From: Kalymmatonema hyalinum WJT4-NPBG1
GTDB taxonomy: Bacteria > Cyanobacteriota > Cyanobacteriia > Cyanobacteriales > Nostocaceae
NCBI GenBank assembly: GCA_019359075.1
Contig: JAHHIB010000064.1
Span: forward strand, 1-52,967
Direction of reading: 5' to 3'
DNA length: 52,967 nt
Shown: positions 2,244-44,862 of the stretch, piece after piece
Layout: each line of letters opens with the position of its first letter
How positions within the stretch are numbered: the stretch's first letter is position 1
Notes under the pieces: model-generated
Seen by the model: only the letters and a program-made list of their open reading frames with translations
Databases searched by the model: none
What the model was told of the DNA's origin: nothing
Translations under genes and position numbers: made by a program

Positions 2244-4271
2244 ATGAAGCGATCGCTATCTATACTTACTCTTTGCTCTACTTTTCTCTCTTTTCTCGCA
2301 CCATACGCTGTTATCGCTGCACCACCCAGAACACCGGACAAAACAGTCAATTGTGACATCTTGGTTGTGGGTGGAGGACTTTCTGGTGCCGCTACAGCTT
2401 ATGAAGGTTTACTCGCAGGGCAAACGGTTTGTCTTAGCGAGATTACCGATTGGCTGGGAGGGCAAATTTCTTCGCAAGGGACTTCTGCACTTGATGAACG
2501 ACCAACCCAGCGTCGCAATTTATTCTACTCACGTGGTTATCTAGAATTGCGAAACCAAATTGAGCGCAAATACCGTGGTAACCGCAACCCCGGCGACTGT
2601 TGGGTGAGCGACTCCTGCTTTCTCCCCCGCGATGGTCATGAAATTTTGACTTCGATGCTTAAAGATGCCGAAAGAAAGGGCAGAGGAAGGTTGCAATGGT
2701 TCCCGAACACGGTTATTAAAGAGTTGGAATATAGTGGCGACGGGAAAATAATTAGTAGTGCGATCGCCATCCAACATCAACCAGCCAAAGGCGCACCACC
2801 TCTCAACACCTTTCCTTTATCTCAAACCGTCGAAGACGCTTACACCTACGAAAACTCGTCTCGCTTTACCAAAACCATTGTCCGCTTTGCCCCCAAGCAA
2901 ACCAAAGGTAAAGCTTCAGGTAATGCTCCCAACTGGTATGTTGTAGACACTTCGGAAACTGGGGAAATTATCGGCCTCGCGGATGTCCCGTACCGACTGG
3001 GTATTGATGCTCGTTCTTATTTAGAGCCTTCTTCCTCCAATACTCAAAACGACCCCTTCTGTACCCAAGGCTTTACCTACACCTTTGCAATGGAGGCTAC
3101 CAAGGAACCGCAACCCCAAACAATGCCTCCATTCTATCCACAGTATGCGCCATATTACAGTTATGAATTGAAGCGACTAGCAAGCTTTCCCTTGGTTTTC
3201 ACCTACCGCCGCATTTGGAGTCCCACCAAAGGACAACCGATGGAATTTGGTGGTGTCAAGTTTACAGGTCCCACCCCAGGGGACATCTCGATGCAAAACT
3301 GGACTTGGGGCAATGATTACCGTCCGGGAACCTCTGCCGATAACCTCATTTACTCTCGCCAACAGTTACAAGCCTCTGGGCAATTGCAACCAGGTGGTTG
3401 GATGGGCGGACTGCGGACAGAAGCTTTACGCAAAGGTGAAGAAATTTCGCTGGGGTACTATCACTGGCTGGTTGCTGGGAATACAGATTCGCAATTGGGG
3501 GATGGTGTCAAGCAGCCAGAACCTAATCACCGCTTTTTATCAGGGCTAGATTCGCCGATGGGGACAGCGCATGGCTTGTCGAAACATCCCTATATGCGGG
3601 AAGGACGACGCATCATTGGACGCCCAAGCTGGGGACAACCCGAAGGCTTTGCTATTTGGGAAATTGATATCTCTCGTCGCAACTACGATGACGAGTATTA
3701 TCGCACGACTCTACCGGCAGATATGTATCGCCGCCTGAAAGCATCACTGTCTGGTTTAGAAGCAGCATCGGTACTCTCAGGTCAGAAACGTGCGGAGAAT
3801 GTAGCGCGGCGTACTCGTTCTACAATCTTCCCTGATGCTATAGGTATCGGTCACTACGCCATAGACTTTCATCCTTGCATGACCAAAAGCCCTCCGGAAG
3901 CGCCTGGAAATACAGAACGTCCAGGCGAAAGGCGTGGTGCTGGGCAAGCTTATCCTTTCCAAATCGCACTCAGGGCGATGATTCCCCAAAAAATCGACAA
4001 TTTGCTTGTGGGTGGTAAAAGCATTGCGACGAGTCACATTGCCGCAGCAGCTTACAGGGTACACTCGTTTGAATGGTCTGCTGGTGCAGCAGCTGGAACG
4101 ACAGCGGCTTTTGCCCTCAAAAATGGCATTGCACCTTACCAACTGGTAGACGACTTGCCCAAACCAGAACCGCGACTACAAAACCTGAAACAGTTGTTAG
4201 AGCAAAATGGCAACCCCACTGCCTTCCCTGATACCTCGATTTTTAACCAAAATTGGGAAGATTGGAAATAA
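2244..4271 (+). CDS. exported FAD-dependent oxidoreductase
   Basis: The frame is open from 2046, but the ATG at 2244 begins a typical signal peptide (MKRSLSILTL, a hydrophobic core and AVIAA at about residue 25), giving 675 residues. Directly after it comes a Rossmann dinucleotide-binding motif, DILVVGGGLSGAATAYE, at about residues 38-54. The C-terminal part has KIDNLLVGGKSIATSHIAAA and a Gly/Ala-rich stretch typical of the second FAD-contacting segment of the FAD_oxidored (PF12831-like) family. Family members are flavoproteins of mostly unknown substrate. The signal peptide implies action in the periplasm or outside the cell, or export of the folded flavoprotein. The gene stands alone. Confidence 0.85.
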   Translation: MKRSLSILTLCSTFLSFLAPYAVIAAPPRTPDKTVNCDILVVGGGLSGAATAYEGLLAGQTVCLSEITDWLGGQISSQGTSALDERPTQRRNLFYSRGYLELRNQIERKYRGNRNPGDCWVSDSCFLPRDGHEILTSMLKDAERKGRGRLQWFPNTVIKELEYSGDGKIISSAIAIQHQPAKGAPPLNTFPLSQTVEDAYTYENSSRFTKTIVRFAPKQTKGKASGNAPNWYVVDTSETGEIIGLADVPYRLGIDARSYLEPSSSNTQNDPFCTQGFTYTFAMEATKEPQPQTMPPFYPQYAPYYSYELKRLASFPLVFTYRRIWSPTKGQPMEFGGVKFTGPTPGDISMQNWTWGNDYRPGTSADNLIYSRQQLQASGQLQPGGWMGGLRTEALRKGEEISLGYYHWLVAGNTDSQLGDGVKQPEPNHRFLSGLDSPMGTAHGLSKHPYMREGRRIIGRPSWGQPEGFAIWEIDISRRNYDDEYYRTTLPADMYRRLKASLSGLEAASVLSGQKRAENVARRTRSTIFPDAIGIGHYAIDFHPCMTKSPPEAPGNTERPGERRGAGQAYPFQIALRAMIPQKIDNLLVGGKSIATSHIAAAAYRVHSFEWSAGAAAGTTAAFALKNGIAPYQLVDDLPKPEPRLQNLKQLLEQNGNPTAFPDTSIFNQNWEDWK

Positions 4272-4278
4272 TTAGTTT

Positions 4279-4322
4279 ATAGTCAAGAGTCATTAGACTT
4301 TTGACTCTTGACTCTTGACTAT
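4279..4322. repeat. 14-bp inverted repeat after the oxidoreductase gene
   Basis: ATAGTCAAGAGTCA (4279-4292) pairs with TGACTCTTGACTAT (4309-4322) around a 16-base loop, starting 7 bases after the stop codon. The arms carry GACTCTTGA-type units related to short tandem repeats found elsewhere in the window. It may help end transcription, but no T run follows. Confidence 0.65.
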
Positions 4323-4411
4323 GGACTAAACTAGTTAATCGTAGTGTAGTTTGGTTAAGCTTTTTGGCTAAGTATTTTATGGTACCCAGACTTTCAGTAG
4401 CTGTTTACGGG

Positions 4412-4705
4412 ATGGCAACAGCACCAACTATAGCTCCTGAACGATCTACTCAAGTGACCCGCAAGTTATATCCGAATTATAAAGTGATTGTATTAAATGA
4501 CGATTTTAATACATTCGAGCATGTTCACAATTGTTTGGTAAAGTATATTCCAGGTATGACTAGCGATCGCGCTTGGGAACTTACCAACCAAGTGCATAAC
4601 GAAGGTCAAGCAATTGTCTGGATCGGTCCTCAAGAAGCCGCTGAACTGTACCACCAGCAGCTGCATCGAGCAGGTTTAACTATGGCTCCTCTGGAAGCAG
4701 CATAA
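4412..4705 (+). CDS. clpS: ATP-dependent Clp protease adaptor ClpS
   Basis: A 97-residue protein that binds N-degron substrates and hands them to the ClpC/ClpP protease. The start MATAPTIAPERS at 4412 matches the usual cyanobacterial ClpS start; in-frame upstream starts at 4364 and 4379 would add a non-family extension. The core motif KVIVLNDDFNTFEHV forms the substrate pocket and Hsp100 contact, followed by DRAWELTNQVHNEGQAIVW and the C-terminal LYHQQLHRAGLTMAPLEA. The length is normal for the family. The DUF2103 gene follows 32 bases later, probably in one transcript, and I recall these two genes as frequent neighbours in cyanobacteria. Confidence 0.93.
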   Translation: MATAPTIAPERSTQVTRKLYPNYKVIVLNDDFNTFEHVHNCLVKYIPGMTSDRAWELTNQVHNEGQAIVWIGPQEAAELYHQQLHRAGLTMAPLEAA

Positions 4706-4737
4706 TAGTAGAAAAATAAATATGAAAAATAAATATA

Positions 4738-5031
4738 ATGGCAAAACCCACTGAGGGCAGATTAGTTTGGAATCACTCGACCCATATTAGTGGTCTTATC
4801 CCAGTTCTTGAACGTTTAATACGCCAAGATGGGATTCAAACCGTTACACCGGGACAGCTTGGGCGGGTGAAAGGTCACTGCCCTCATTTACAATTGCGGA
4901 TCTCTGTACCAATTCGCGGTGGATTTAAGGTGATCGCCCGCCAGGGGAAAACAGTGCAAGAGGTGTTTATCCTGACAAATTTGGAGCAGAATCTACTCCA
5001 AGAGGCGATCGCGATCGCCATGAAAAAGTAA
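4738..5031 (+). CDS. DUF2103 domain protein
   Basis: A 97-residue protein, MAKPTEGRLVWNHSTHISGL at the start, with KGHCPHLQLRISVPI in the centre. The His and Cys residues (WNHSTH, GHCPH) are the reason this cyanobacterial and plastid-related family is described as metal binding. It lies 32 bases after clpS on the same strand. The end of the gene contains HIP1 sequence encoding EAIAIAM. The biochemical role is unknown; the link with clpS is positional only. Confidence 0.8.
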   Translation: MAKPTEGRLVWNHSTHISGLIPVLERLIRQDGIQTVTPGQLGRVKGHCPHLQLRISVPIRGGFKVIARQGKTVQEVFILTNLEQNLLQEAIAIAMKK

Positions 5032-5164
5032 TCAATACTCTCAAAGAATTCAGAACTCAGGACTCAGAACTCACAATTAGAGAGCGGTTGTCTGTAGGCT
5101 GGACATTGCTCGCTGATATCTCAAATGTCCATTACATAAGCTTTTATGGGCAATCACCCGAAGT

Positions 5165-22337: not shown

Positions 22338-22650
22338 TTGAAGGTTAAAGAGTGTAGACGCCCGGAAGGCAGCTTGCCGGAGGTGATCATGAAATATGAA
22401 CCCAAGGCAAAAGTACATATACGCCCTGAGGGTGAATTCCCGGTGGGTGGTATGAACTATATACTGAAGTATGGAGTCATTCATCCTTTATCCTTTCTTG
22501 GTCATTCTCACAAAAATCTAGCTATACTCGTGTTGCAACCATTGAGCCATGCTTGTAGCACAGGCTGTTGCCTGTCTAAAAATGAACACCGTATGCGTCA
22601 GGGTTCTCTAGTTGAGAAGCAACCCCATCCCTAAAGGTATGGGATTGTGG
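22338..22650 (+). other. possible IS605-type tnpB remnant (3' end)
   Basis: A 98-codon frame to 22634 ends in RMRQGSLVEKQPHP followed by a GGGATGGGG-like short stem (CCCATCCCTAAAGGTATGGGA at 22624-22644). A basic tail and a stem at the stop codon are reminiscent of the ends of cyanobacterial TnpB genes, where the reRNA and right element end lie. The rest of the frame does not look like TnpB. This is a weak, memory-based suggestion; the alternative is unrelated non-coding DNA. Confidence 0.2.
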
Positions 22651-22673
22651 ATTGACGCTACCTGACCCGCCTA

Positions 22674-22990
22674 AGTCCTTAACTGGACTACGTTCAAGAG
22701 GAGTGTTAAAGTCTCACCTACGAATGCTTGCCAGTTTGTAGCTCTGAAACCTCACATATTAAACAGCCTTACGGAGAATAAAGCAGTATATGTAGGAAAG
22801 TACCGCTCTTGAACTTTGGCGCTTGCTAACTTTACCCGAAAGGGGTTTCCCGGCAACGGGAGTTTACGGATAAGTCTTACGGGCGTTATTTCCCCTCGGG
22901 CTTCATCTCCATAAATATAATTTAGGGGCTTCCGCCCTTCGATATCGGTGATTCATGGCTGATGTCAGACTACACCGGTAATCTATATGG
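22674..22990 (+). ncRNA. candidate structured RNA, no associated ORF
   Basis: This gene-free stretch is rich in complementary segments. AGTCC/GGACT forms a small hairpin at 22674-22688. GTTCAAGAG (22692-22700) pairs with CTCTTGAAC (22806-22814), closing a domain of about 120 bases with CTAC/GTAG inside. TCCCG-GCAA-CGGGA (22848-22861) is a GNRA-loop hairpin. ATCGGTG and CACCGGT near 22945-22980 are also complementary. GC content is higher than in the surrounding AT-rich DNA. The arrangement resembles long mobile-element RNAs (omega-RNA of IscB elements, or group II introns), but no matching protein gene follows. Strand is assumed. Confidence 0.35.
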
Positions 22991-34657: not shown

Positions 34658-36673
34658 ATGATTTTAAAGCAAAGATTATCTAAGAGAATAAATGATACTA
34701 AGTTACTATATAGTGTTTTAGCTGCATATAAAAACTACATAGAAAAAGTTATTAGTTCAATGGGAGATGCCTTGCTAATAACGACTAAGTTAGGAGAAAT
34801 AAAGAAAGTAAATTCAGCAGCATTAGAATTATTTGGTTATAGTGAAGAAGAATTAATAAATCAACAGATTTCTTTAATATTTGAAGATAAAAAGTTATGG
34901 AAACAAGCTTTCCAACAGGTTTATTTATATAAAAAAAGTTTTCAAAATAGAGAAATTGTTTGTCGCAAGAAAACAAAAGAAAAAATACTGATTGCTTTTT
35001 CTTGTTTAGTTATTAAGAAAAAAATAGATGGGTTAGAAGATATTGTATACATTGGTCGAGATATCACCGCCAGACAGGGCAGACAACAACGCAACAATAC
35101 ACAATCTGCTATAACCCGTATCTTATCAGAGCCTCAAAGTGTAAAGCAGGCGATTCCGAAGATTCTACAAGCAATTTGTGAAAACCTGGGATGGGATTTA
35201 GGAGAACTTTGGACATCAAATCAATATATAGAAGCATCGGTGCTGCAACGCAGCCTCAATCCAGTTCTCAGGTGTGTGGAAATTTGGTCGAGTCGAACAC
35301 TTGCTGCGCAAGAGTTTAAAGCAATCACTTGGCAGACGACTTATACCCCTAGTGTAGGGTTACCTGGTCAAATTTGGGTGACGCGATCGCCCGTTTGGAT
35401 GAGTCATATATCGCATCATACTAATATTGAGCGATTGGGCAAGGAACAGGGCGCTGACAGGCGAACGCAAGCCGCTGTTGAAGCCGGATTGCATACAGCA
35501 TTTGGCTTTCCCATCTTGGCTGACAATGAAGTATTAGGCGTGATGATTTTCTTGAGTCGGGATGTACAATCAAAAGATGCAGAACTGCTGCAAATGATGG
35601 TTTCTATAGGTAGCCAAATTGCTCAATTTATCAAACGCAAACAAGCAGAGTCAGCGCTACTGGAAAGCGAAGAACGGTATCGAGACTTGTTTGAAAACGC
35701 TAACGACTTGATTCAGTCTGTGACTCCCTATGGTCGTTTGGAGTATGTTAATCGAGCGTGGCTTCAAACTTTAGGATATACTCAAACTGAAATTCAGAAG
35801 ATAAATTTGTTTGACATCATCCATCCCGATTTTCAAGAAGAATGTCGGGAAGTATTTTGTCGCGTGATGTCAGGGGAAAAACTCGAACAACTGACAACTG
35901 TATTCGTTTCTAAAGATGGTCAAAAAATCTTTGTGGAAGGGAATATTAACTGTAAATTTGTAGAAGGAAAACCAGTTGCCACTCGCGGCATTTTTCGTAA
36001 CATGACTGGGCGCATTGTAGCAGAGGAAGCAGTACGCCATCAACAGCAACAAACCGAACGCGTTTTGTTGGATATTTTACCAGAAGCAATCTTCAACCGC
36101 CTGAAAGAAGAACCAGGTACAATTACAGAAGACTTTGCTAATGTCACAGTTCTGTTTGCAGATATTATAGGTTTTACTGAAATCGCCTCTCAAATAAGTG
36201 CAATTCAATTAGTCAACATACTCAACAAAATTTTCTCAGTTTTCGACCAACTTACCGAGCGATATGGTTTGGAGAAAATTAAGACCATCGGTGATGCTTA
36301 TATGGTAGTTGGTGGTCTGCCTAGACGATGCCCAAACCACGCCCAAGCGATCGCCCAGATGGCGTTAGATATGCAAACAGCGATCGCCCAGTTCAATACT
36401 GAAAACAACAAAAACTTTAGCATCCGTATCGGCATTCATAGCGGTCTGGTGGTGGCGGGAGTCATTGCCATCAAAAAGTTTACCTACGACCTCTGGGGAG
36501 ACACAGTAAACATTGCCAGCCGTATGCAATCTCAGGGCTTGGCTGGCAAAATTCAAGTGACAGAAGTTACCTACAAATTTTTACGTAATGACTTCCTATT
36601 TGAAAAACGCGGTGAAATCGAAATCAAAGGCAAAGGGAAGATGACGACTTATGTGTTGGTCAGTCGTAAGTGA
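34658..36673 (+). CDS. PAS-GAF-PAS adenylate cyclase (class III)
   Basis: A 671-residue soluble protein: PAS (about 28-140), GAF (about 150-335), PAS (about 345-465), then a class III nucleotide cyclase domain (about 480-668). Catalytic features are FADIIGFTE with the first metal-binding Asp, EKIKTIGDAYMVVGG with Lys for adenine recognition and the second metal Asp, and FTYDLWGDTVNIASRM with Asp completing adenine selectivity and the transition-state Asn. The product should be cAMP. The GAF has no bilin Cys motif. The first 130 codons are much more AT-rich than the rest. The gene has a weak ribosome site and AT-rich DNA upstream. Confidence 0.92.
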   Translation: MILKQRLSKRINDTKLLYSVLAAYKNYIEKVISSMGDALLITTKLGEIKKVNSAALELFGYSEEELINQQISLIFEDKKLWKQAFQQVYLYKKSFQNREIVCRKKTKEKILIAFSCLVIKKKIDGLEDIVYIGRDITARQGRQQRNNTQSAITRILSEPQSVKQAIPKILQAICENLGWDLGELWTSNQYIEASVLQRSLNPVLRCVEIWSSRTLAAQEFKAITWQTTYTPSVGLPGQIWVTRSPVWMSHISHHTNIERLGKEQGADRRTQAAVEAGLHTAFGFPILADNEVLGVMIFLSRDVQSKDAELLQMMVSIGSQIAQFIKRKQAESALLESEERYRDLFENANDLIQSVTPYGRLEYVNRAWLQTLGYTQTEIQKINLFDIIHPDFQEECREVFCRVMSGEKLEQLTTVFVSKDGQKIFVEGNINCKFVEGKPVATRGIFRNMTGRIVAEEAVRHQQQQTERVLLDILPEAIFNRLKEEPGTITEDFANVTVLFADIIGFTEIASQISAIQLVNILNKIFSVFDQLTERYGLEKIKTIGDAYMVVGGLPRRCPNHAQAIAQMALDMQTAIAQFNTENNKNFSIRIGIHSGLVVAGVIAIKKFTYDLWGDTVNIASRMQSQGLAGKIQVTEVTYKFLRNDFLFEKRGEIEIKGKGKMTTYVLVSRK

Positions 36674-36700
36674 TAAGGAGGATGAGGAGAATATTGCTCC

Positions 36701-36727
36701 CTGATCTCCCTGATCTCCCTGATCTCC
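36701..36727. repeat. CTGATCTCC nonamer tandem repeat
   Basis: Three exact units of CTGATCTCC lie in the 65-base gap between two convergent genes. No terminator-like stem is present. Confidence 0.75.
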
Positions 36728-36738
36728 CCCTACTTGCC

Positions 36739-37926
36739 CTACTCCCCGCCTCCAGTATTAGGAATCAACCTGCCTACAGGATAAGTTGCGACTTCTTGGG
36801 GAGAACCGCCATCAGTCACAGCAGCTGGTATTTCATCTACTGGTTGGGTTTTAGCTGCTAAATAATCTGTCCGCAGCTTTTCTAGCATCTGTTCGCGCTT
36901 GTCATACAGCCGCTTCAGAGAACGAGGCTGACTTTGGTTTAAAACGTAAGCTGTGACTAACGGCAGTGCAATTGTGCTATCGGTATAACAAACGATGGTG
37001 CTGGGTAACTCATCTGGGTCAATCTTACCCCAACTCACAGCTTCCGAGGGTGTTGCTCCAGATAACCCTCCAGTATCAGGACGAGCATCAGTGAACTGGA
37101 CAAAGTAATCGTGTCCTCGTTCTTCTAGTCCCAAAACTTCATGAATTTGCGGTTGTGTTTGTAGCAAAAAGTTTTTCGGACTGCCACCACCAATAATGAC
37201 AGCTGCACTCTTGCCTCCTGTCTCCCGCGCAGAGTAGGCAATAGCTGCCGTTTCATTGACATCTATCGAAGGGTCTAAGATTAGCTTGGAACCTTCCAAC
37301 GACAATGCGGCAACGTTCATACCAATGGAACTATCACCTGGCGAAGATGTATAAATAGGAACTCCATATTCATAAGCCGTAGCGAGCAAGCAGGAATGCT
37401 TCACCCCCAGTTGCTTTTCTACTTCCCGGACATACTTGCCTAGTAGATGATGAAATTCCGCAGTTCCCATCCGTTTTTGGAATGGTTCTGCTTGCAAAAC
37501 TTTACGGATGAAAGCATCTGTTTCCAACAGCACATCATAGCCAAAGATAATGTCATAAATACGAATAGTGCTTTGCTGGCGCAGCTTCACATCATCCAAA
37601 AACGGATTGCCAGCGAAGAGTTCAAAACCTAGCCCATAGTGCATGTCATGGTAAAGGTTAGCACCAGTGCTGATGATCCAGTCAATAAATCCGTTGCGGA
37701 TTAACGGTGCCAGTGCAGAAACTCCGTATCCTGCTGGTGTCATCGCACCAGAAAGGCTGACTCCTACCGTCACGCCTTCCTTGAAGACATCTCGACTAAG
37801 GAGATGACATATCTCCCGTAACCGTGCTGAATTGTAGGCGGTGAAGTAATTATCAATCAAATCGACGACGCCGATATCAGTTGGCATCGGTACAGGTGAG
37901 ATTTTTTTACCCAGCTGTTTTGACAT
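36739..37926 (-). CDS. deoxyhypusine synthase-family protein
   Basis: A 395-residue NAD-dependent enzyme of the deoxyhypusine synthase fold. Conserved parts are [56 protein letters not shown] and [18 protein letters not shown]. Lys301 corresponds to the lysine that forms the covalent imine with the aminobutyl group. Eukaryotes and archaea use this enzyme on eIF5A, which bacteria lack. Bacterial relatives act on polyamines, as in homospermidine synthase-like reactions, so a polyamine role is likely but the exact reaction is inference. It starts after a CTACCAAAA leader and stands alone. Confidence 0.9.
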
Positions 37927-38144
37927 TTTTGGTAGCCCCCAAAGAAATAACTGATAAGTTTACTAGACATCCGTCTAGCTAGACTCAACGACAAAAGATT
38001 TCTAGTCTGCATAGGCAGGTTTTCTGGTACTACCCCAAGCATGAAAATCTTCCTCCCCTTGTCCTTTTTCTAGTTAGCCCCAGACTTGTATTCTATGGAC
38101 GACTAGATGTCAAATCTGAATAAACAGACAGGATACAATCGTAT

Positions 38145-38666
38145 CTACCTTTGAGTGATTTCTTGCATCACCTGCAAGTAGCAATTGTAAGCGTTTTGCC
38201 CAAAACAAACGAAAATGGCTTGCTCTAGGGAATCATTGCTCTGTAAAAACTTATTAACTTCACTAACAGCAATTTTAGTAGCCCGGTGGAGCGGAAAACC
38301 ATAAGCGCCTGTGCTAATGGCTGGAAAAGCAATGGTTTTTATGCCATTTTGCACTGCTAAGGCTAGACTATTGCGATAACACTGTGCCAACAGCTCATCT
38401 TCATCAGAATTACCACCTTCCCACACAGGACCAACGGTGTGAATGACCCACTTTGCGGTCAGGTGATAACCTTTGGTGATCTTTGCTTGACCAGTATCGC
38501 ATCCGTGCAACTTGCGACACTCTTCCAAAAGTTCTGGTCCGGCGGCACGATGTATCGCGCCATCTACACCGCCTCCTCCCAACAGGCTGTTGTTGGCAGC
38601 ATTCACAATAGCATCTACCTGTAGCTGAGTAATATCGTCTTGGATAACGGAAGCTCTATTTTCCAT
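38145..38666 (-). CDS. macro-domain O-acetyl-ADP-ribose deacetylase-like protein
   Basis: A 173-residue macro domain that fills the whole protein. The N-terminal motif [20 protein letters not shown], the loop [26 protein letters not shown] and [12 protein letters not shown] bind ADP-ribose; the pattern is that of the MacroD/YmdB hydrolases that remove acetyl or ADP-ribose groups. The length is normal. Codons 10-22 correspond to the 36 bases that recur, with two changes, just upstream of the omega-RNA-like region at 39.9 kb (see findings). It is followed on the same strand by DHS about 220 bases downstream, probably a separate unit. Confidence 0.93.
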
Positions 38667-38736
38667 AAATTAGCCGTCGTTGCATTCTTAAATGTTTTGG
38701 TTGATCATATCTCCTAGACCAGAGATGGTAGGTTGA

Positions 38737-39594
38737 TTAGGGAAGATACTTATACTTTATGCAACCGTGCAAATGTCCTGCAAACCAGGCAAAATTTAAT
38801 AACCACCTCACTAAACTTTCTCTATCACGAACTCTCAGCATAAATTTCAAAGCAAGAATGACTGCGTCTTTGACAAACCCCTGCCATTTGATCAACTTAG
38901 GCATACCCACTTGTTGATGCTTTTTATGTAGCAAAACGTCGTAACAAGCTAATTTCCAAGATCGACGGTACAAACCTTCAATGGTGTTGCGAAACCGGAA
39001 ATGAACGAGTGCATCTTTTGCACACTCAAGTGTTTTCCCTGCCTCTTGAATCCTCCAGCAGTAGTCAACGTCTTGGAGTGAGAGCATCGTTTCATCGAAA
39101 CCACCGACCATTTCATGGACTGAACGCTTGACACCAAGATTACTGGCACCTGCATATGGAAAATATGGATGTTTGTTAACTCCATTGCCCTCTGTGTATG
39201 CACAGCACTCAATGACCCACGGTTGATTCAGTTTCGAGTACTCGTTGCAACCTGCAACTAAGTCGTGTTTGGAGAGTGCTTCAATCATAGCTGCTACCCA
39301 TCCTGGGGCAACTTCGTCGTCAGCATCGCAGAATGCAAAGGCAACACTCTTGGCAACACTTGCACCAACGTTGCGGGCGTGGGCAGAACCTCTGCGAGCA
39401 GATGCTTCGACAAAACGAAGATGAGGTATGCGGTGCTGATATTGTTTGATGATCGCCACTGTGTCATCAGTTGAGCCGTTGTCGGCAACAACAATCTCCC
39501 ACGGATCGGAGCATTGCTGCTTAGCCAACGCCTCCAATTGAAAAGCGATGGTATCCGCAGCATTGAAACAGGGTACGATCACACTTAATTTCAT
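38737..39594 (-). CDS. family 2 glycosyltransferase
   Basis: The ATG at 39594 gives 285 residues; a TTG one codon earlier is possible. It has the GT-A fold features KLSVIVPCFNAADTIAFQL, WEIVVADNGSTDDTV, the metal-binding FAFCDADDEVAPGW (DxD-like) and a later LSLQDVDYCWRIQEAG that holds the catalytic-base region. A C-terminal segment (LKFMLRVRDRESLVRWLLNF) could be membrane-associated. Such enzymes add sugars to polysaccharides or lipids; the acceptor is unknown. Not clustered with other glycan genes. Confidence 0.9.
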   Translation of the reverse strand: MKLSVIVPCFNAADTIAFQLEALAKQQCSDPWEIVVADNGSTDDTVAIIKQYQHRIPHLRFVEASARRGSAHARNVGASVAKSVAFAFCDADDEVAPGWVAAMIEALSKHDLVAGCNEYSKLNQPWVIECCAYTEGNGVNKHPYFPYAGASNLGVKRSVHEMVGGFDETMLSLQDVDYCWRIQEAGKTLECAKDALVHFRFRNTIEGLYRRSWKLACYDVLLHKKHQQVGMPKLIKWQGFVKDAVILALKFMLRVRDRESLVRWLLNFAWFAGHLHGCIKYKYLP

Positions 39595-39860
39595 CAAAAT
39601 TTGATATTCCCTTCAATTCGTGCTTTTTCAGCACCTGACATTGTTTATCAAAATTTTTTATATATTTTTTTTCTGATACTACTGAGCCTGCTGTGTGACA
39701 AAATTTTCACTGGTCATCGTACCAGATTTTGAGATTTTTTGTTATATAATTAACATTTGTATCAGTAAATTTAAGGTAATGCCTTGGGTAGTGTAACGAA
39801 AGCTGCAATCAAATGGGATATAAACTGAACGGTTTAGTTTAGTTGCTTTTGTAGCGATTG

Positions 39861-39896
39861 TTCACAATAGCATCTACCTGTAGCTAAGTCATATCG
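39861..39896 (+). other. guide-like segment matching the macro-domain gene
   Basis: TTCACAATAGCATCTACCTG followed by 16 more bases matches 38602-38637 at 34 of 36 positions (differences at 39886 and 39890). Homology stops at both ends. The segment abuts the predicted omega-RNA scaffold, the position where guides lie in IscB and IsrB systems. On the + strand it is antisense to the macro-domain mRNA. Confidence 0.7.
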
Positions 39897-39897
39897 C

Positions 39898-40115
39898 CGT
39901 CAGCTTCTCCCGCCTACTTCGTAGAGGCGGGAGCTTGCGAACAACCAGGTTCGTTGTAAGAGCTGACTAGTCCATGAGCCATTACCTGGTACGTACTCCC
40001 AAATGTTTCCCTAGTTTGGGTTATCTACAAGCTCCCTGGTTTGGAGCGCTTGCGGAAAGGACATCTTGGTGATGGTGGACTAAGGGACAAATCACTCCAA
40101 TAGGAGGTTTATCAC
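39898..40115 (+). ncRNA. candidate omega-RNA (HEARO-type) of the IsrB locus
   Basis: Highly structured 218-base leader. GTCAGCT (39899-39905) pairs with AGCTGAC about 60 bases later. Inside are CTCCCGCC/GGCGGGAG with CTAC/GTAG and CGAAC/GTTCG stems. Downstream lie CCATTACCTGG, CCCAAATG...GTTTGGG and GCTCCCTGGTTTGGAGC segments that can pair, then AGGAGG and the isrB start. IscB and IsrB genes are known to have such a non-coding RNA directly upstream, with the guide at its 5' end. The exact ends are estimated from pairing, not from data. Confidence 0.7.
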
Positions 40116-41219
40116 ATGAATCGAGTACCAGTTTTAGCCCCCAATGGCGAGCCACTCATGCCTACAACCCCATCTCGCTGCCGTCGCTGGCTGCGAGATG
40201 GGAAAGCCAAGGTGGTACGCAATGACCTGAATGTATTCTGCATTCAATTGTTGTCAGAACCCGAAGGGCGGAAAACCCAGGATGTAGTGATAGGGATCGA
40301 TCCAGGTAAAGCTTTTAGCGGGGTTGGAGTCCAAAGCTCCAAGTTTACCCTGTTCATCGCACATCTGGTTCTACCCTTCAAGTCAGTCACTGCTAAAATG
40401 ACTGACCGAAGACGATTGCGACGTGCAAGAAGGGGTAGGCGGATTAACCGCAAGCTCCCCTACAGCAGGCGTTCTCACAGGCAAGAACGCTTCAACAACC
40501 GCAAGCAGAAAAAACTACCCCCCAGTATTCGAGCCAACAGACAGCTCGAATTGCGGGTAGTCAAGGAACTGCTCAAAATCTTCCCTGTTTCTCACATCCG
40601 CTACGAAATTATCAAGGCGCGAACAGAGAACGGAAAAGGAAAACGGTTTTCCCCTGCAATGGTAGGTCAGCATGTGATGCTGGAGTGGCTTCTGGAATTG
40701 CGCCCCACCAGCACCCTTCTTGGGTGGCAGACATCGATCCTCAGGCAGCAATTAGGGTTAGCCAAGGACAAAACCGATAAGTCTGCCCAAAAACCAGAGA
40801 CTCACGCTCATGACGGTGTTGCCCTCGCTGCTAGTCATTTCATGAGTTTCGAGAGATTCCATACTGCTAATACCAGGGATCATCGCTGGGTGGGGCAAGT
40901 CTCGGTTACAACCGCACCATTCCGAATTATCAGTCGCCCGAATCTATTCCGGCGCTGGCTGCATTTCGAGAATAAAGAATTGGGTGGGACTCGCAAGCGT
41001 AAAGGTGGAACTATTACCCCATTCGGTTTTCGTTGTGGTGACAAAGTTAGAGCCGAAAAAGCGGGAGTGATTTATGTAGGCTGGATTGGCGGGTATACCC
41101 AAACTCAAAAAACCAGAAATTTATCGGTCTACAACCATGAATGGAAGCGCCAAGGGCAATTCTCGCTTGGGAAGGTCGAACTGTTGCAGCGCAGCACTAG
41201 ACTCTGCGTTGCAGGATAG
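40116..41219 (+). CDS. isrB: IsrB-type RNA-guided RuvC protein (IscB relative without HNH)
   Basis: A 367-residue protein preceded by AGGAGG. The N-terminal PLMP domain is present (VLAPNGEPLMPTTPSRCRRW), followed by RuvC-I (VVIGIDPGKAFSGVGV, Asp62), an arginine-rich bridge helix (DRRRLRRARRGRRINRKL, about 97-114), RuvC-II (IRYEIIKA, Glu164) and RuvC-III (HAHDGVALAASHF, Asp233). Only about 65 residues separate RuvC-II and RuvC-III, so there is no HNH nuclease domain, which distinguishes IsrB from IscB and Cas9. Known IsrB proteins nick DNA under omega-RNA guidance. The C-terminal part (FRCGDKVRAEKAGVIYVGWI) corresponds to the target-recognition region. The reading frame is intact. No transposase gene is next to it. 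Confidence 0.88.
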   Translation: MNRVPVLAPNGEPLMPTTPSRCRRWLRDGKAKVVRNDLNVFCIQLLSEPEGRKTQDVVIGIDPGKAFSGVGVQSSKFTLFIAHLVLPFKSVTAKMTDRRRLRRARRGRRINRKLPYSRRSHRQERFNNRKQKKLPPSIRANRQLELRVVKELLKIFPVSHIRYEIIKARTENGKGKRFSPAMVGQHVMLEWLLELRPTSTLLGWQTSILRQQLGLAKDKTDKSAQKPETHAHDGVALAASHFMSFERFHTANTRDHRWVGQVSVTTAPFRIISRPNLFRRWLHFENKELGGTRKRKGGTITPFGFRCGDKVRAEKAGVIYVGWIGGYTQTQKTRNLSVYNHEWKRQGQFSLGKVELLQRSTRLCVAG

Positions 41220-41262
41220 ATTATTGGCTGCCTACACTTTGTCGCACGAGGGCGCTGTCTCT

Positions 41263-41299
41263 CCCCAGGCTACTCCACTTCGTTCCGTTGAGCCTGGGG
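41263..41299. repeat. hairpin downstream of isrB
   Basis: CCCCAGGCT (41263-41271) pairs with AGCCTGGGG (41291-41299) around a 19-base loop that itself contains ACTTCGTTCCGTT. It may be the right-end structure of an IS200/IS605-like element or a terminator; no T run follows. It lies about 120 bases before the cobO start. Confidence 0.6.
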
Positions 41300-41416
41300 A
41301 CTCCCGCGAAGCGTTGAATAACAGAAATTCTGTTTGCCGCAATTGAGTTTGCTTGCTTCAAATTGCCTGTTTTGGTTCATCCTAGTAGTAATGACACTGA
41401 ACTCAATGCCAGCGCC

Positions 41417-42079
41417 ATGCAAACCGATGAAACTTGGGCAACCACTAGTGATGTAGCCGTTGGGGAGAATTCCTCCCTGACGTCAGAACAGTACCGCAAA
41501 AAGATGGAGCGACGCAAACAAGTGCAGGAGGTGCGAGTTACTCATGCCTCTACTGAAAAAGGGTTAATTATCGTAAATACTGGTAATGGCAAGGGAAAAA
41601 CCACCGCGGCGCTAGGAATGGTGTTGCGTGCGCTTGGTCATGGTTATAAGGTCGCGATTATTCAATTTATCAAAGGTGCTTGGGAACCTGCCGAAAAAAG
41701 AGTTTTCAGTATTTGGCAAGATGATTTATTAGAATTTCATGCTATGGGCGAAGGCTTCACTTGGGAAACTCAAGACCGCGATCGCGATATTGAAAAAGCT
41801 GTCGAAGCTTGGCAAAAAGGATTAGAATATATCCGCAACCCAGACTTCAAGCTGGTGCTGTTGGATGAAATTAATATAGCTCTTAAACTTGGTTACTTAC
41901 CAGTTGAGGAAGTTTTAGCCGGGTTGGCTCAAAAGCCACCTGACAGTCATGTTATTCTCACGGGCAGAGGTGCTCCCACGGCATTGATTGAACGAGCCGA
42001 CTTGGTGACAGAAATGTCCCTAATTAAGCATCCCTTCCGCGATCAAGGCATTAAGGCGCAACCAGGAATTGAGTATTGA
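41417..42079 (+). CDS. cobO: cob(I)yrinic acid a,c-diamide adenosyltransferase
   Basis: The enzyme transfers the adenosyl group of ATP to the cobalt of corrinoids in cobalamin synthesis. From the ATG at 41417 it has 220 residues (MQTDETWATT); an upstream TTG at 41363 is less likely. The P-loop is IIVNTGNGKGKTTAALGM, followed by VAIIQFIKGAWEPAEKRVF, FTWETQDRDRDIEKAV, LVLLDEINIALKLGYL and VILTGRGAPTALIERADLV, all typical of CobA/CobO. The normal promoter region may have been replaced by the isrB locus, whose end lies about 200 bases upstream. Confidence 0.94.
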   Translation: MQTDETWATTSDVAVGENSSLTSEQYRKKMERRKQVQEVRVTHASTEKGLIIVNTGNGKGKTTAALGMVLRALGHGYKVAIIQFIKGAWEPAEKRVFSIWQDDLLEFHAMGEGFTWETQDRDRDIEKAVEAWQKGLEYIRNPDFKLVLLDEINIALKLGYLPVEEVLAGLAQKPPDSHVILTGRGAPTALIERADLVTEMSLIKHPFRDQGIKAQPGIEY

Positions 42080-42132
42080 CAAGCGTGTCAAATTGTGTGT
42101 AGGGAATTTTATGCATGGTTATTTTTAATTCC

Positions 42133-42882
42133 CTACTCACTGATACCGCTTTGACACATTTGTAAAACCTGGCGATCGCTAGCAGCCATTCCATTGACCG
42201 GATAATAATCTTGGAGCGTTACAGAGTGGGGATAATTACTGGACTCATCATCCATGACCCGAGGCAATGTATTGTTTGCCGCCACCTGAGTTGGGCTTTT
42301 GTCACCAGGGTAGCCTGTTACCGTCATTGCCAACTGTCCCGAGGACTCGAGTGTGCCATTAAAACAACTAAACTCAGAGCTTGGCATATACAGCGCACCA
42401 ATCACTTTGCTCTGCCGTTTCTCAAATATGATATAGCCTTGCCCGAGTTCACCTGATTTTGGCGATTGACCATAAAGGTAAACACCATCTTGTTGGGGAA
42501 ATTTAGCTCCTGTAGCCGCAGCTGTGGCTTTTTTGGCAGATGTTTGGGGTTCTACAACCTTTGCTGTGGTTGTAGAGACTCTTTCTAAACTATTTGATTG
42601 AGTGACACTCTCTGGAAGAGTCACTGATTTTGTCAGTGCTTTGCGCAAACGGGCTTCCTTGTCCCCAGTGAATTCTGAAGTAGGGGAAGGATGACTTTGC
42701 AACCAAGTGTAAGTTGGTAAGTGAGAATCTGTAGAGGACACCGTGGATGGATCAACGTATGCAGTTTGGTTACTGAGTACTGGTTTAGGAAAATTAGCAA
42801 CAAAACCAAGGATGAGAAGTCCGCCTACAAAGGGGATTCCTAATAAACTTGAGGAAACAAACTTTTTCATGTTGTTAGGCAC
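42133..42882 (-). CDS. exported or membrane-anchored hypothetical protein
   Basis: A GTG at 42882 with AGGAG seven bases upstream is preferred over the ATG four codons later; the product has 249 residues. The N-terminus is basic followed by a hydrophobic helix (LLGIPFVGGLLILGFVANF), a signal anchor. A Ser/Thr/Pro-rich low-complexity linker (about 40-125) leads to a folded C-terminal domain with DGVYLYGQSPKSGELGQGYI, VIGALYMPSSEFSCFNGTL and LQDYYPVNGMAASDRQVLQM. Two cysteines (in FSCFNG and QMCQSG) could form a disulfide outside the cytosol. I recall similar conserved cyanobacterial proteins of unknown function. Confidence 0.7.
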   Translation of the reverse strand: MPNNMKKFVSSSLLGIPFVGGLLILGFVANFPKPVLSNQTAYVDPSTVSSTDSHLPTYTWLQSHPSPTSEFTGDKEARLRKALTKSVTLPESVTQSNSLERVSTTTAKVVEPQTSAKKATAAATGAKFPQQDGVYLYGQSPKSGELGQGYIIFEKRQSKVIGALYMPSSEFSCFNGTLESSGQLAMTVTGYPGDKSPTQVAANNTLPRVMDDESSNYPHSVTLQDYYPVNGMAASDRQVLQMCQSGISE

Positions 42883-43803
42883 CCTATTACTCCTGTAAAA
42901 AATTATCTGGGTTTTCTACAACTTACTTACAAGTTACCGGACTATTTATATATAAAGGCTCCGTCAATGGTTTGATTTATATTGTCTGGAAAAATCTTTG
43001 CCAAAAAATAAATTTTTCATTCAATTTTGGGCGATGATCTTAACCTACCATTATTCGGTCTATTCACGCTTCACCCATTAGATTCACCCCATAGGATGAT
43101 TGTTTTGAAAAATGAAAAATAAAAAATGAAAATTTAATTTTTAGCATTTTTTATTTTTCATTATTTAATTTCAAAAACAATTGACACCTTTTTGCTAAAG
43201 TCATCTCTCTAATGTATGAACAAGCAAAACTACACAAGCAATTCTGTTCATTCCGGATTTCGCCGAGAAATTTTGGCAAAAATAACTGAATATAGGGAAT
43301 AGGGGAAATGGTAACGCATGACCAATAAAGGACAACAGACCACAGAGTAAGAATTGCTGGAGGAATTGTGTACCACCGGGTGCGGAGGCTTTGAATCACA
43401 CCAGCGGATTAAGCCCTGGAGAAATAGAATTTACATACTATACAAATGCACCCACATATGCATTGACTATCGCCGTTTTTGCAAGCAGCTTGTAGGAAGC
43501 TGTTGGTTTAACTTTAAGCTGCAATTGTGAAGAACTTGGGAATTTTTAAAGACAACCTGCAAAAATTATCTTGTCTTAAGATTTCTGCGACCATACAAAC
43601 CACCCTATGGACGCGCCACTGTTTCACAAAATAACTTATTTGTAAAGGGCATTCCTATAGAATTAGACCTGCCTTGAAAATAAGGCAGCTATGCTGAAGG
43701 AAGGAAGTAAGAACCAAAATCATCCTTCTTTGTGAGCTTTTGCTCATGGAGTCTTTTGCATCAATCTCTAAAACCCCCCTCATTCCCCTGCGAAGTTCCG
43801 AAT
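42883..43803. other. intergenic region, no convincing gene
   Basis: Near 43108-43168 there is a long A/T inverted repeat (AAAATGAAAAATAAAAAATG with its complement). An 82-codon frame at 43151-43399 on the minus strand has no family features. A CAGCTTGTAGGAAGCTG hairpin occurs near 43490. The segment is otherwise featureless to me. Confidence 0.45.
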
Positions 43804-43833
43804 AAAAAAATCGCCTCCTGGATTCAGGAGGCG
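43804..43833 (-). terminator. intrinsic terminator of the sigma factor gene
   Basis: On the minus strand CGCCTCCTG-AATC-CAGGAGGCG (43833-43812) is a perfect 9-bp GC-rich stem with a 4-base loop, followed by ATTTTTTT. It lies about 45 bases after the sigma factor stop codon, a textbook rho-independent terminator. Confidence 0.9.
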
Positions 43834-43878
43834 CGTCGCCATTATTCTTTCAAGACGTAGCAATGCTACGTCTGTAGA

Positions 43879-44862
43879 TTAGCTAGCAACGTACTCTTTA
43901 ACGTTGGCACGACGACGACGCAGATGAGCAAGGGCTTGATGCTCTAACTGACGGACGCGTTCGCGGCTGAGGTTCAACCGTTCGCCAACTTTGGCCAAAG
44001 ACATTTCGTTTCCATCGACTAAACCAAAGCGCAGGGCTACAACTTCTCGCTGTTGCGGGGTGAGTTCTGCCAGCATATTGTTTAAGTCTTGGCGCAAGAA
44101 TTCCTGGGTCGTGTAATACTCTGGTGATGGTCCTTCATCTTCGAGCATTTCTTGCAGTTCGGTATCTTGGTTATCGCCAACTTTTACATCCAAAGATACT
44201 GGCTGACGCGCCATGTTCAGGTACTCGCGGATCTGGGCTGGTTCTAACTCAAGTTCTTTGCCAATTTCCGCAGGAGTTGGCGATCGCCCCAACTTCTGAG
44301 CCAGTTCACGCTGCACTTTTTTGATTTTGTTCAGCTTCTCAGTAATGTGGATCGGTAAACGAATGGTACGACCTTGCTGAGCGATCGCCCGCGTTATCGC
44401 TTGACGAATCCACCAGTAAGCGTAGGTTGAGAACTTATAACCACGTGTCGGGTCAAATTTCTCCACACCCCGCTCTAATCCTAGTGTTCCTTCCTGGATC
44501 AGATCCAGAAACTCCATGTTCCGCTTCTGGTACTTCTTGGCAATGGCAACAACTAAGCGCAAATTCGCTTCAATCATCTTTTGCTTTGCCCGCTTGCCTT
44601 GGTGTACTATCTGTTTCACCTCAGTCTCAGATTTGCGAACATGAGCTGCCCATTCTTCTAAGCTAGGTTCCTGGCGCAATTTCTTCGTCAAAGCCTCCTT
44701 AGCGTCCAGGAGCGTCATCATTTGTTGTACCTGCTTCCCATAGACAATCTCTTGCTCACGGGTTAGCAGTGGTACACGACCAATCTCGCGCAGATAGGTT
44801 CGCACCATATCAGCCGTGAATTTGGCGTTAAGGTTTTCGGTTTGGGTGTCAACAGTAGGCAT
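43879..44862 (-). CDS. group 2 sigma-70 factor (RpoD/SigA-like)
   Basis: A 327-residue sigma factor lacking the long region 1.1 of the primary SigA. It has region 1.2 ([21 protein letters not shown]), region 2 ([60 protein letters not shown]), region 3 ([15 protein letters not shown]) and region 4 ([15 protein letters not shown], with the helix-turn-helix [20 protein letters not shown]). Group 2 factors recognise SigA-like promoters and serve stress, nitrogen or light responses in cyanobacteria. The paralogue (SigB, C, D or E type) cannot be fixed from this alone. It is followed by its own terminator and preceded by a long leader. Confidence 0.94.

Follow-up and report, generated by a model that had tools for sequence, protein, structure and literature searches.

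A cyanobacterial IsrB guide that resembles a nearby macro-domain gene is explained by an ordinary insertion into a relic of that gene

Why does the sequence at the guide position of an IsrB omega-RNA match an intact macro-domain gene 1.26 kb away? As Altae-Tran is said to have reported in 2021, IscB/IsrB guides are left-flank sequences, and the initial annotation took this locus to depart from that rule: the upstream DNA was no macro gene, and the guide was read either as captured for host-directed regulation or as a scar left where an element had once inserted into a copy of a macro gene. We analyzed the window, a 52,967-nt stretch of Kalymmatonema hyalinum WJT4-NPBG1, together with the rest of its genome and the same locus in relatives. 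On its 5′ side the macro gene is followed by a glycosyltransferase gene, the left part of a macro-gene stump, the isrB element, the right part of the stump, and cobO. The two parts of the stump amount to ~105 bp and derive from the macro-gene start. The features are as follows:

38145..38666, − strand: intact macro-domain gene of the ADP-ribose-binding / O-acetyl-ADP-ribose deacetylase type (Pfam Macro 1.3e-49; NCBIfam NF001664 239 bits, cut-off 200)
38602..38706 (right end approximate), − strand: start of the macro gene with the DNA upstream of it, paralogous to the stump (alignments)
38737..39597, − strand: family 2 glycosyltransferase gene, between intact macro gene and stump (Pfam Glycos_transf_2 7.5e-30)
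39861..39898, + strand: left part of the stump, with the final ~20 nt (39879-39898) occupying the omega-RNA guide position (alignments, empty sites)
39899..41313, + strand: IsrB (HEARO-type) element, beginning with GTCAGC (scaffold start) and ending with GAAGCG (two congeners with an empty site; matching ends in related elements)
39899..40095, + strand: omega-RNA scaffold, HEARO RF02033, full model 1-211 (42.4 bits, E 1.9e-7; gathering score 83)
40116..41219, + strand: isrB gene, 367 aa, RRXRR/PLMP and RuvC, no HNH found (Pfam RRXRR 9.7e-47; DtIsrB 8dmb 1.6e-47)
41314..41317, + strand: TTGA directly after the element, the TAM of the insertion site (related-element alignment, flank alignments)
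41314..41385 (right end approximate), + strand: right part of the stump, on the cobO side (alignments, empty sites)

A palindrome-like sequence, AACTGAACGGTTTAGTTTAGTT, lies at 39828-39848 upstream of the glycosyltransferase gene and looks alike by eye in both congeners; it is possibly an operator.

The match itself stood up to alignment. Bases 39861-39896 agree with 38602-38637 at 34 of 36 positions, the first 25 nt (39861-39885) without a break, and the local alignment of guide segment and macro gene scores 64 (maximum of 5000 shuffles, 31). The segment covers macro codons 10-22, with its + strand antisense to the macro mRNA, just as first annotated. When the strain's own genome (8,399,904 bases in 174 contigs) was searched with 39840-40116, the matches comprised the query itself and the macro gene only, the latter at E 1.4e-8. 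The 20-nt pattern 39879-39898, allowing up to 3 mismatches, occurs at two places in the genome, stump and macro gene, and the same pattern reversed, used as a control, gave 0 matches there. The initial annotation had named a repeat at many sites as the outcome that would overturn its reading; with two places only and no third copy of the 36-base match found in the 8.4-Mb genome, the segment is not a dispersed repeat.

Two parts of that description required revision. HEARO model position 1 falls at 39899, so that the scaffold begins there and the flank, or guide, runs to 39898, slightly beyond the end first given. The statement that homology is lacking on either side of the match holds on the left, where an alignment of the DNA before 39861 detected no macro-gene homology (score 12; shuffle mean 14.2), but fails on the right: past the isrB element, 41314-41385 aligns to 38640-38709 with a score of 41 (shuffle mean 17.2, maximum 40.0; 0/5000 shuffles reach 41). 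The macro-gene start is the top-scoring place in the window for this right flank, self aside, and the runner-up scores 37. The right-hand homology had been missed because the isrB element lies directly beside the 36 bases. Given its resumption beyond the element, the E value, the shuffle and reversed-pattern controls, and the confinement to two places in the genome, we rejected both chance and a dispersed repeat as sources of the 36-nt match and regard either as vanishingly improbable.

Relatives reveal the site without its element, as a comparison of the same locus—proposed in the initial annotation—bears out. The genus sample comprised three genomes: the strain's own, Scytonema sp. NIES-4073 (G005), and Tolypothrix campylonemoides VB511288 (G058). 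NIES-4073 aligns with the window without a break to 39898 and restarts at ~41311, with no element sequence between, and VB511288 has the same element-free junction. Both congeners read ATATCGCC joined directly to TTGAATAAC, whereas the window reads ATATCGCC, then GTCAGC...GAAGCG, then TTGAATAAC; these joined flanks set the element's limits at 39899-41313, a size of 1,415 bp. Because the stump is present in both congeners without the element, the duplicated macro segment does not depend on the element, and what serves as guide is the insertion flank. The supposed departure from the flank rule was therefore mistaken. Each congeneric stump has also changed in its own way: that of VB511288 carries an extra, unrelated insert of ~98 bp further left (L063, about 4326-4426), and that of NIES-4073 lacks 4 nt and is otherwise altered within the guide part. 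In NIES-4073, ~1.5 kb between stump and cobO (L064, about 3582-5055) is without a match to window positions 36000-44000.

The protein, RNA, and ends of the element are those of an IsrB. A Pfam search of its protein returned RRXRR only (9.7e-47) and no HNH match; with a PLMP/RRXRR N-terminus, RuvC, and no HNH, it has the domain layout and approximate size (~350 aa) of the family. DtIsrB (8dmb) matches over its full length (E 1.6e-47, residues 2-362), and the NCBIfam IscB equivalog scores 102 bits, under its cut-off of 175. The RuvC Asp, Glu, and Asp, which we take to be the catalytic residues, align with their DtIsrB counterparts, and the TAM-reading Arg and Gln of DtIsrB appear conserved by manual residue mapping. 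An omega-RNA scaffold precedes the gene, though its 42.4 bits fall below the gathering score of 83; the guide corresponds to the left-end flank, and TTGA, an (N)TGA TAM, follows the right end and is present in the empty site. We compared 13 elements, the window's included (loci L033-L045, the best-scoring of a much longer list of isrB relatives). The scaffold starts with GTCA in 13/13, and TTGA follows the right end in 11/13 by alignment and in 12/13 under a looser pattern. One guide is cut off; the 12 that can be read all differ by eye, as they should where every guide is the flank of its own insertion. Elsewhere in the genome are 17 matches to Y1 transposases, which could mobilize the element in trans.

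The window contains a second HEARO omega-RNA at 22597-22835 (+ strand, 106.7 bits), and the translations of the 2.6 kb after it include no IscB/IsrB-like ORF of at least 100 aa. It recurs at the matching site of both congeners (234/239 and 226/239 identical), with 19/20 and 18/20 of the 20-nt guide positions the same, and is predicted to be a conserved orphan omega-RNA.

Taken together, the locus is, with high confidence, a macro-gene relic holding a standard IsrB insertion, whose guide is the insertion flank. A 1,415-bp element inserted 5′ of TTGA, in the ~105-bp relic of the macro-gene start upstream of cobO, and the DNA just outside its left end would have become the guide of the putative omega-RNA. 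This guide has the sequence of the stump and, by paralogy, that of codons 10-22 of the intact gene: it resembles the macro gene because the insertion flank is a partial duplicate of it. Precise excision from both siblings would give the same picture. The scar first suggested is thus essentially right, in that the insertion did enter a partial macro duplicate; the element is still there, and the insertion is not a former one. The natural target of the guide would be the element-free stump allele, as carried by the sibling strains. By analogy with TnpB and IscB, nicking of that allele could favor re-insertion or retention of the element; in the model proposed for TnpB (PMC8612924), the element-free donor joint is cut and then repaired from the sister copy.

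Could the guide nonetheless have been acquired or retained as a means of directing IsrB to bind or nick the macro gene? The gene fits the presumed 20-nt guide at 17/20 positions, the mismatches falling at positions 2, 9, and 13 counted from the TAM, and its TAM position reads TTGG, against TTGA at the insertion site. According to PMC9581776, wild-type DtIsrB prefers TTGA and nicks substrates with TTGA or ATGA, not those with TTGG or ATGG; four other IsrBs, including the cyanobacterial DsIsrB and CwIsrB, recognize NTG TAMs, a latitude that would permit TTGG. The Arg and Gln with which DtIsrB reads its TAM are those that appear conserved here. On its TAM alone, the macro gene might be a target. 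For IscB, PMC9640706 describes tolerance of mismatches at the distal positions 15-16 only. By its sequence, the intact gene seems ill suited as an IsrB target. The guide DNA predates the element or is independent of it, since two congeners have it in the same position and lack the element, and the 11 other readable relatives carry different guides. The aligned RuvC Asp, Glu, and Asp also make a nuclease-dead repressor an ill-fitting comparison. We consequently rejected the host-directed guide suggested in the initial annotation, which was left without support, and consider it highly improbable.

The same strand orientation would allow the omega-RNA to act instead as an antisense RNA on the macro mRNA, across codons 10-22, where 25 nt would pair without a break. 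Most of this stretch precedes the 20-nt guide and would be lost from an RNA starting near 39879; the arrangement is not conserved, and the siblings have no element at the site. We assign such a role little more than a nominal probability. IsrB targeting of the macro gene and antisense pairing with its mRNA are thus both unlikely, and it is very doubtful that the omega-RNA cross-reacts with the intact gene at all, whether through IsrB at 38620-38643 or through antisense pairing by 39861-39898, and so lowers its expression. Were it to do so, the cross-reaction would be an accidental regulatory link made by the choice of insertion site.

The stump itself has a longer history. In 7/7 loci retrieved from other genera, the macro gene adjoins cobO with no glycosyltransferase match, and in 3/3 congeners the glycosyltransferase gene lies between intact macro gene and stump. 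In Nostocales cyanobacterium HT-58-2 (L103), the glycosyltransferase occupies the same position. Most of the body of its macro gene appears to be gone, with blastn detecting only the 3′ 54 bp, and a decayed stump before cobO scores 74 to the stump vs. 46 to the macro start, as raw scores with no shuffle control. The partial macro-gene duplication is probably older than the genus. A query with the IsrB element gave no match in any of the 10 loci searched, HT-58-2 included. By eye, the macro 3′ end of HT-58-2 (about 4840-4960) appears joined to its own upstream DNA, beside the glycosyltransferase. In a search for the source of the glycosyltransferase, 38/192 genomes match, many over the gene only, and in one (G050) the match extends over part of the upstream DNA; the 192 genomes yielded no route by which the duplication arose.

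Stump and macro gene differ at 3/38 positions on the guide side and at 8/27 on the other (Fisher P = 0.04). The right-hand changes are common to the element-free congeners, so the better-conserved guide side does not imply selection on the guide; we judge the bias weak and older than the element.

The macro-gene likeness of the guide is thereby explained, as ordinary IsrB behavior, and an apparent exception to the insertion-flank rule for IscB/IsrB guides is removed. For any guide that looks like a neighboring gene, the insertion site should be checked, on both sides of the element, for a broken paralogue. The locus further provides, for an IsrB from a cyanobacterium, a clean pair of occupied and empty sites in which the ends of the element are exact.

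A host-directed guide would have likened the locus to the TldRs, the TnpB-derived RNA-guided repressors described in PMC13418256, in which a transposon-derived protein is likewise sent to a host gene. The window differs from these in both respects compared: its RuvC Asp, Glu, and Asp look intact in the alignment with DtIsrB, and its guide is an insertion flank, not one common to relatives, all 12 readable guides being different. The closer likeness is to the IsrB/HEARO elements of the IS200/IS605 type, represented by DtIsrB (8dmb): a protein of ~350 aa with RRXRR/PLMP and RuvC and no HNH, an omega-RNA directly upstream, a guide at the 5′ flank, and TTGA after the element. Nothing of substance sets the window element apart from them; its scaffold scores below the Rfam gathering cut-off, and the first stem is longer and GC-rich.
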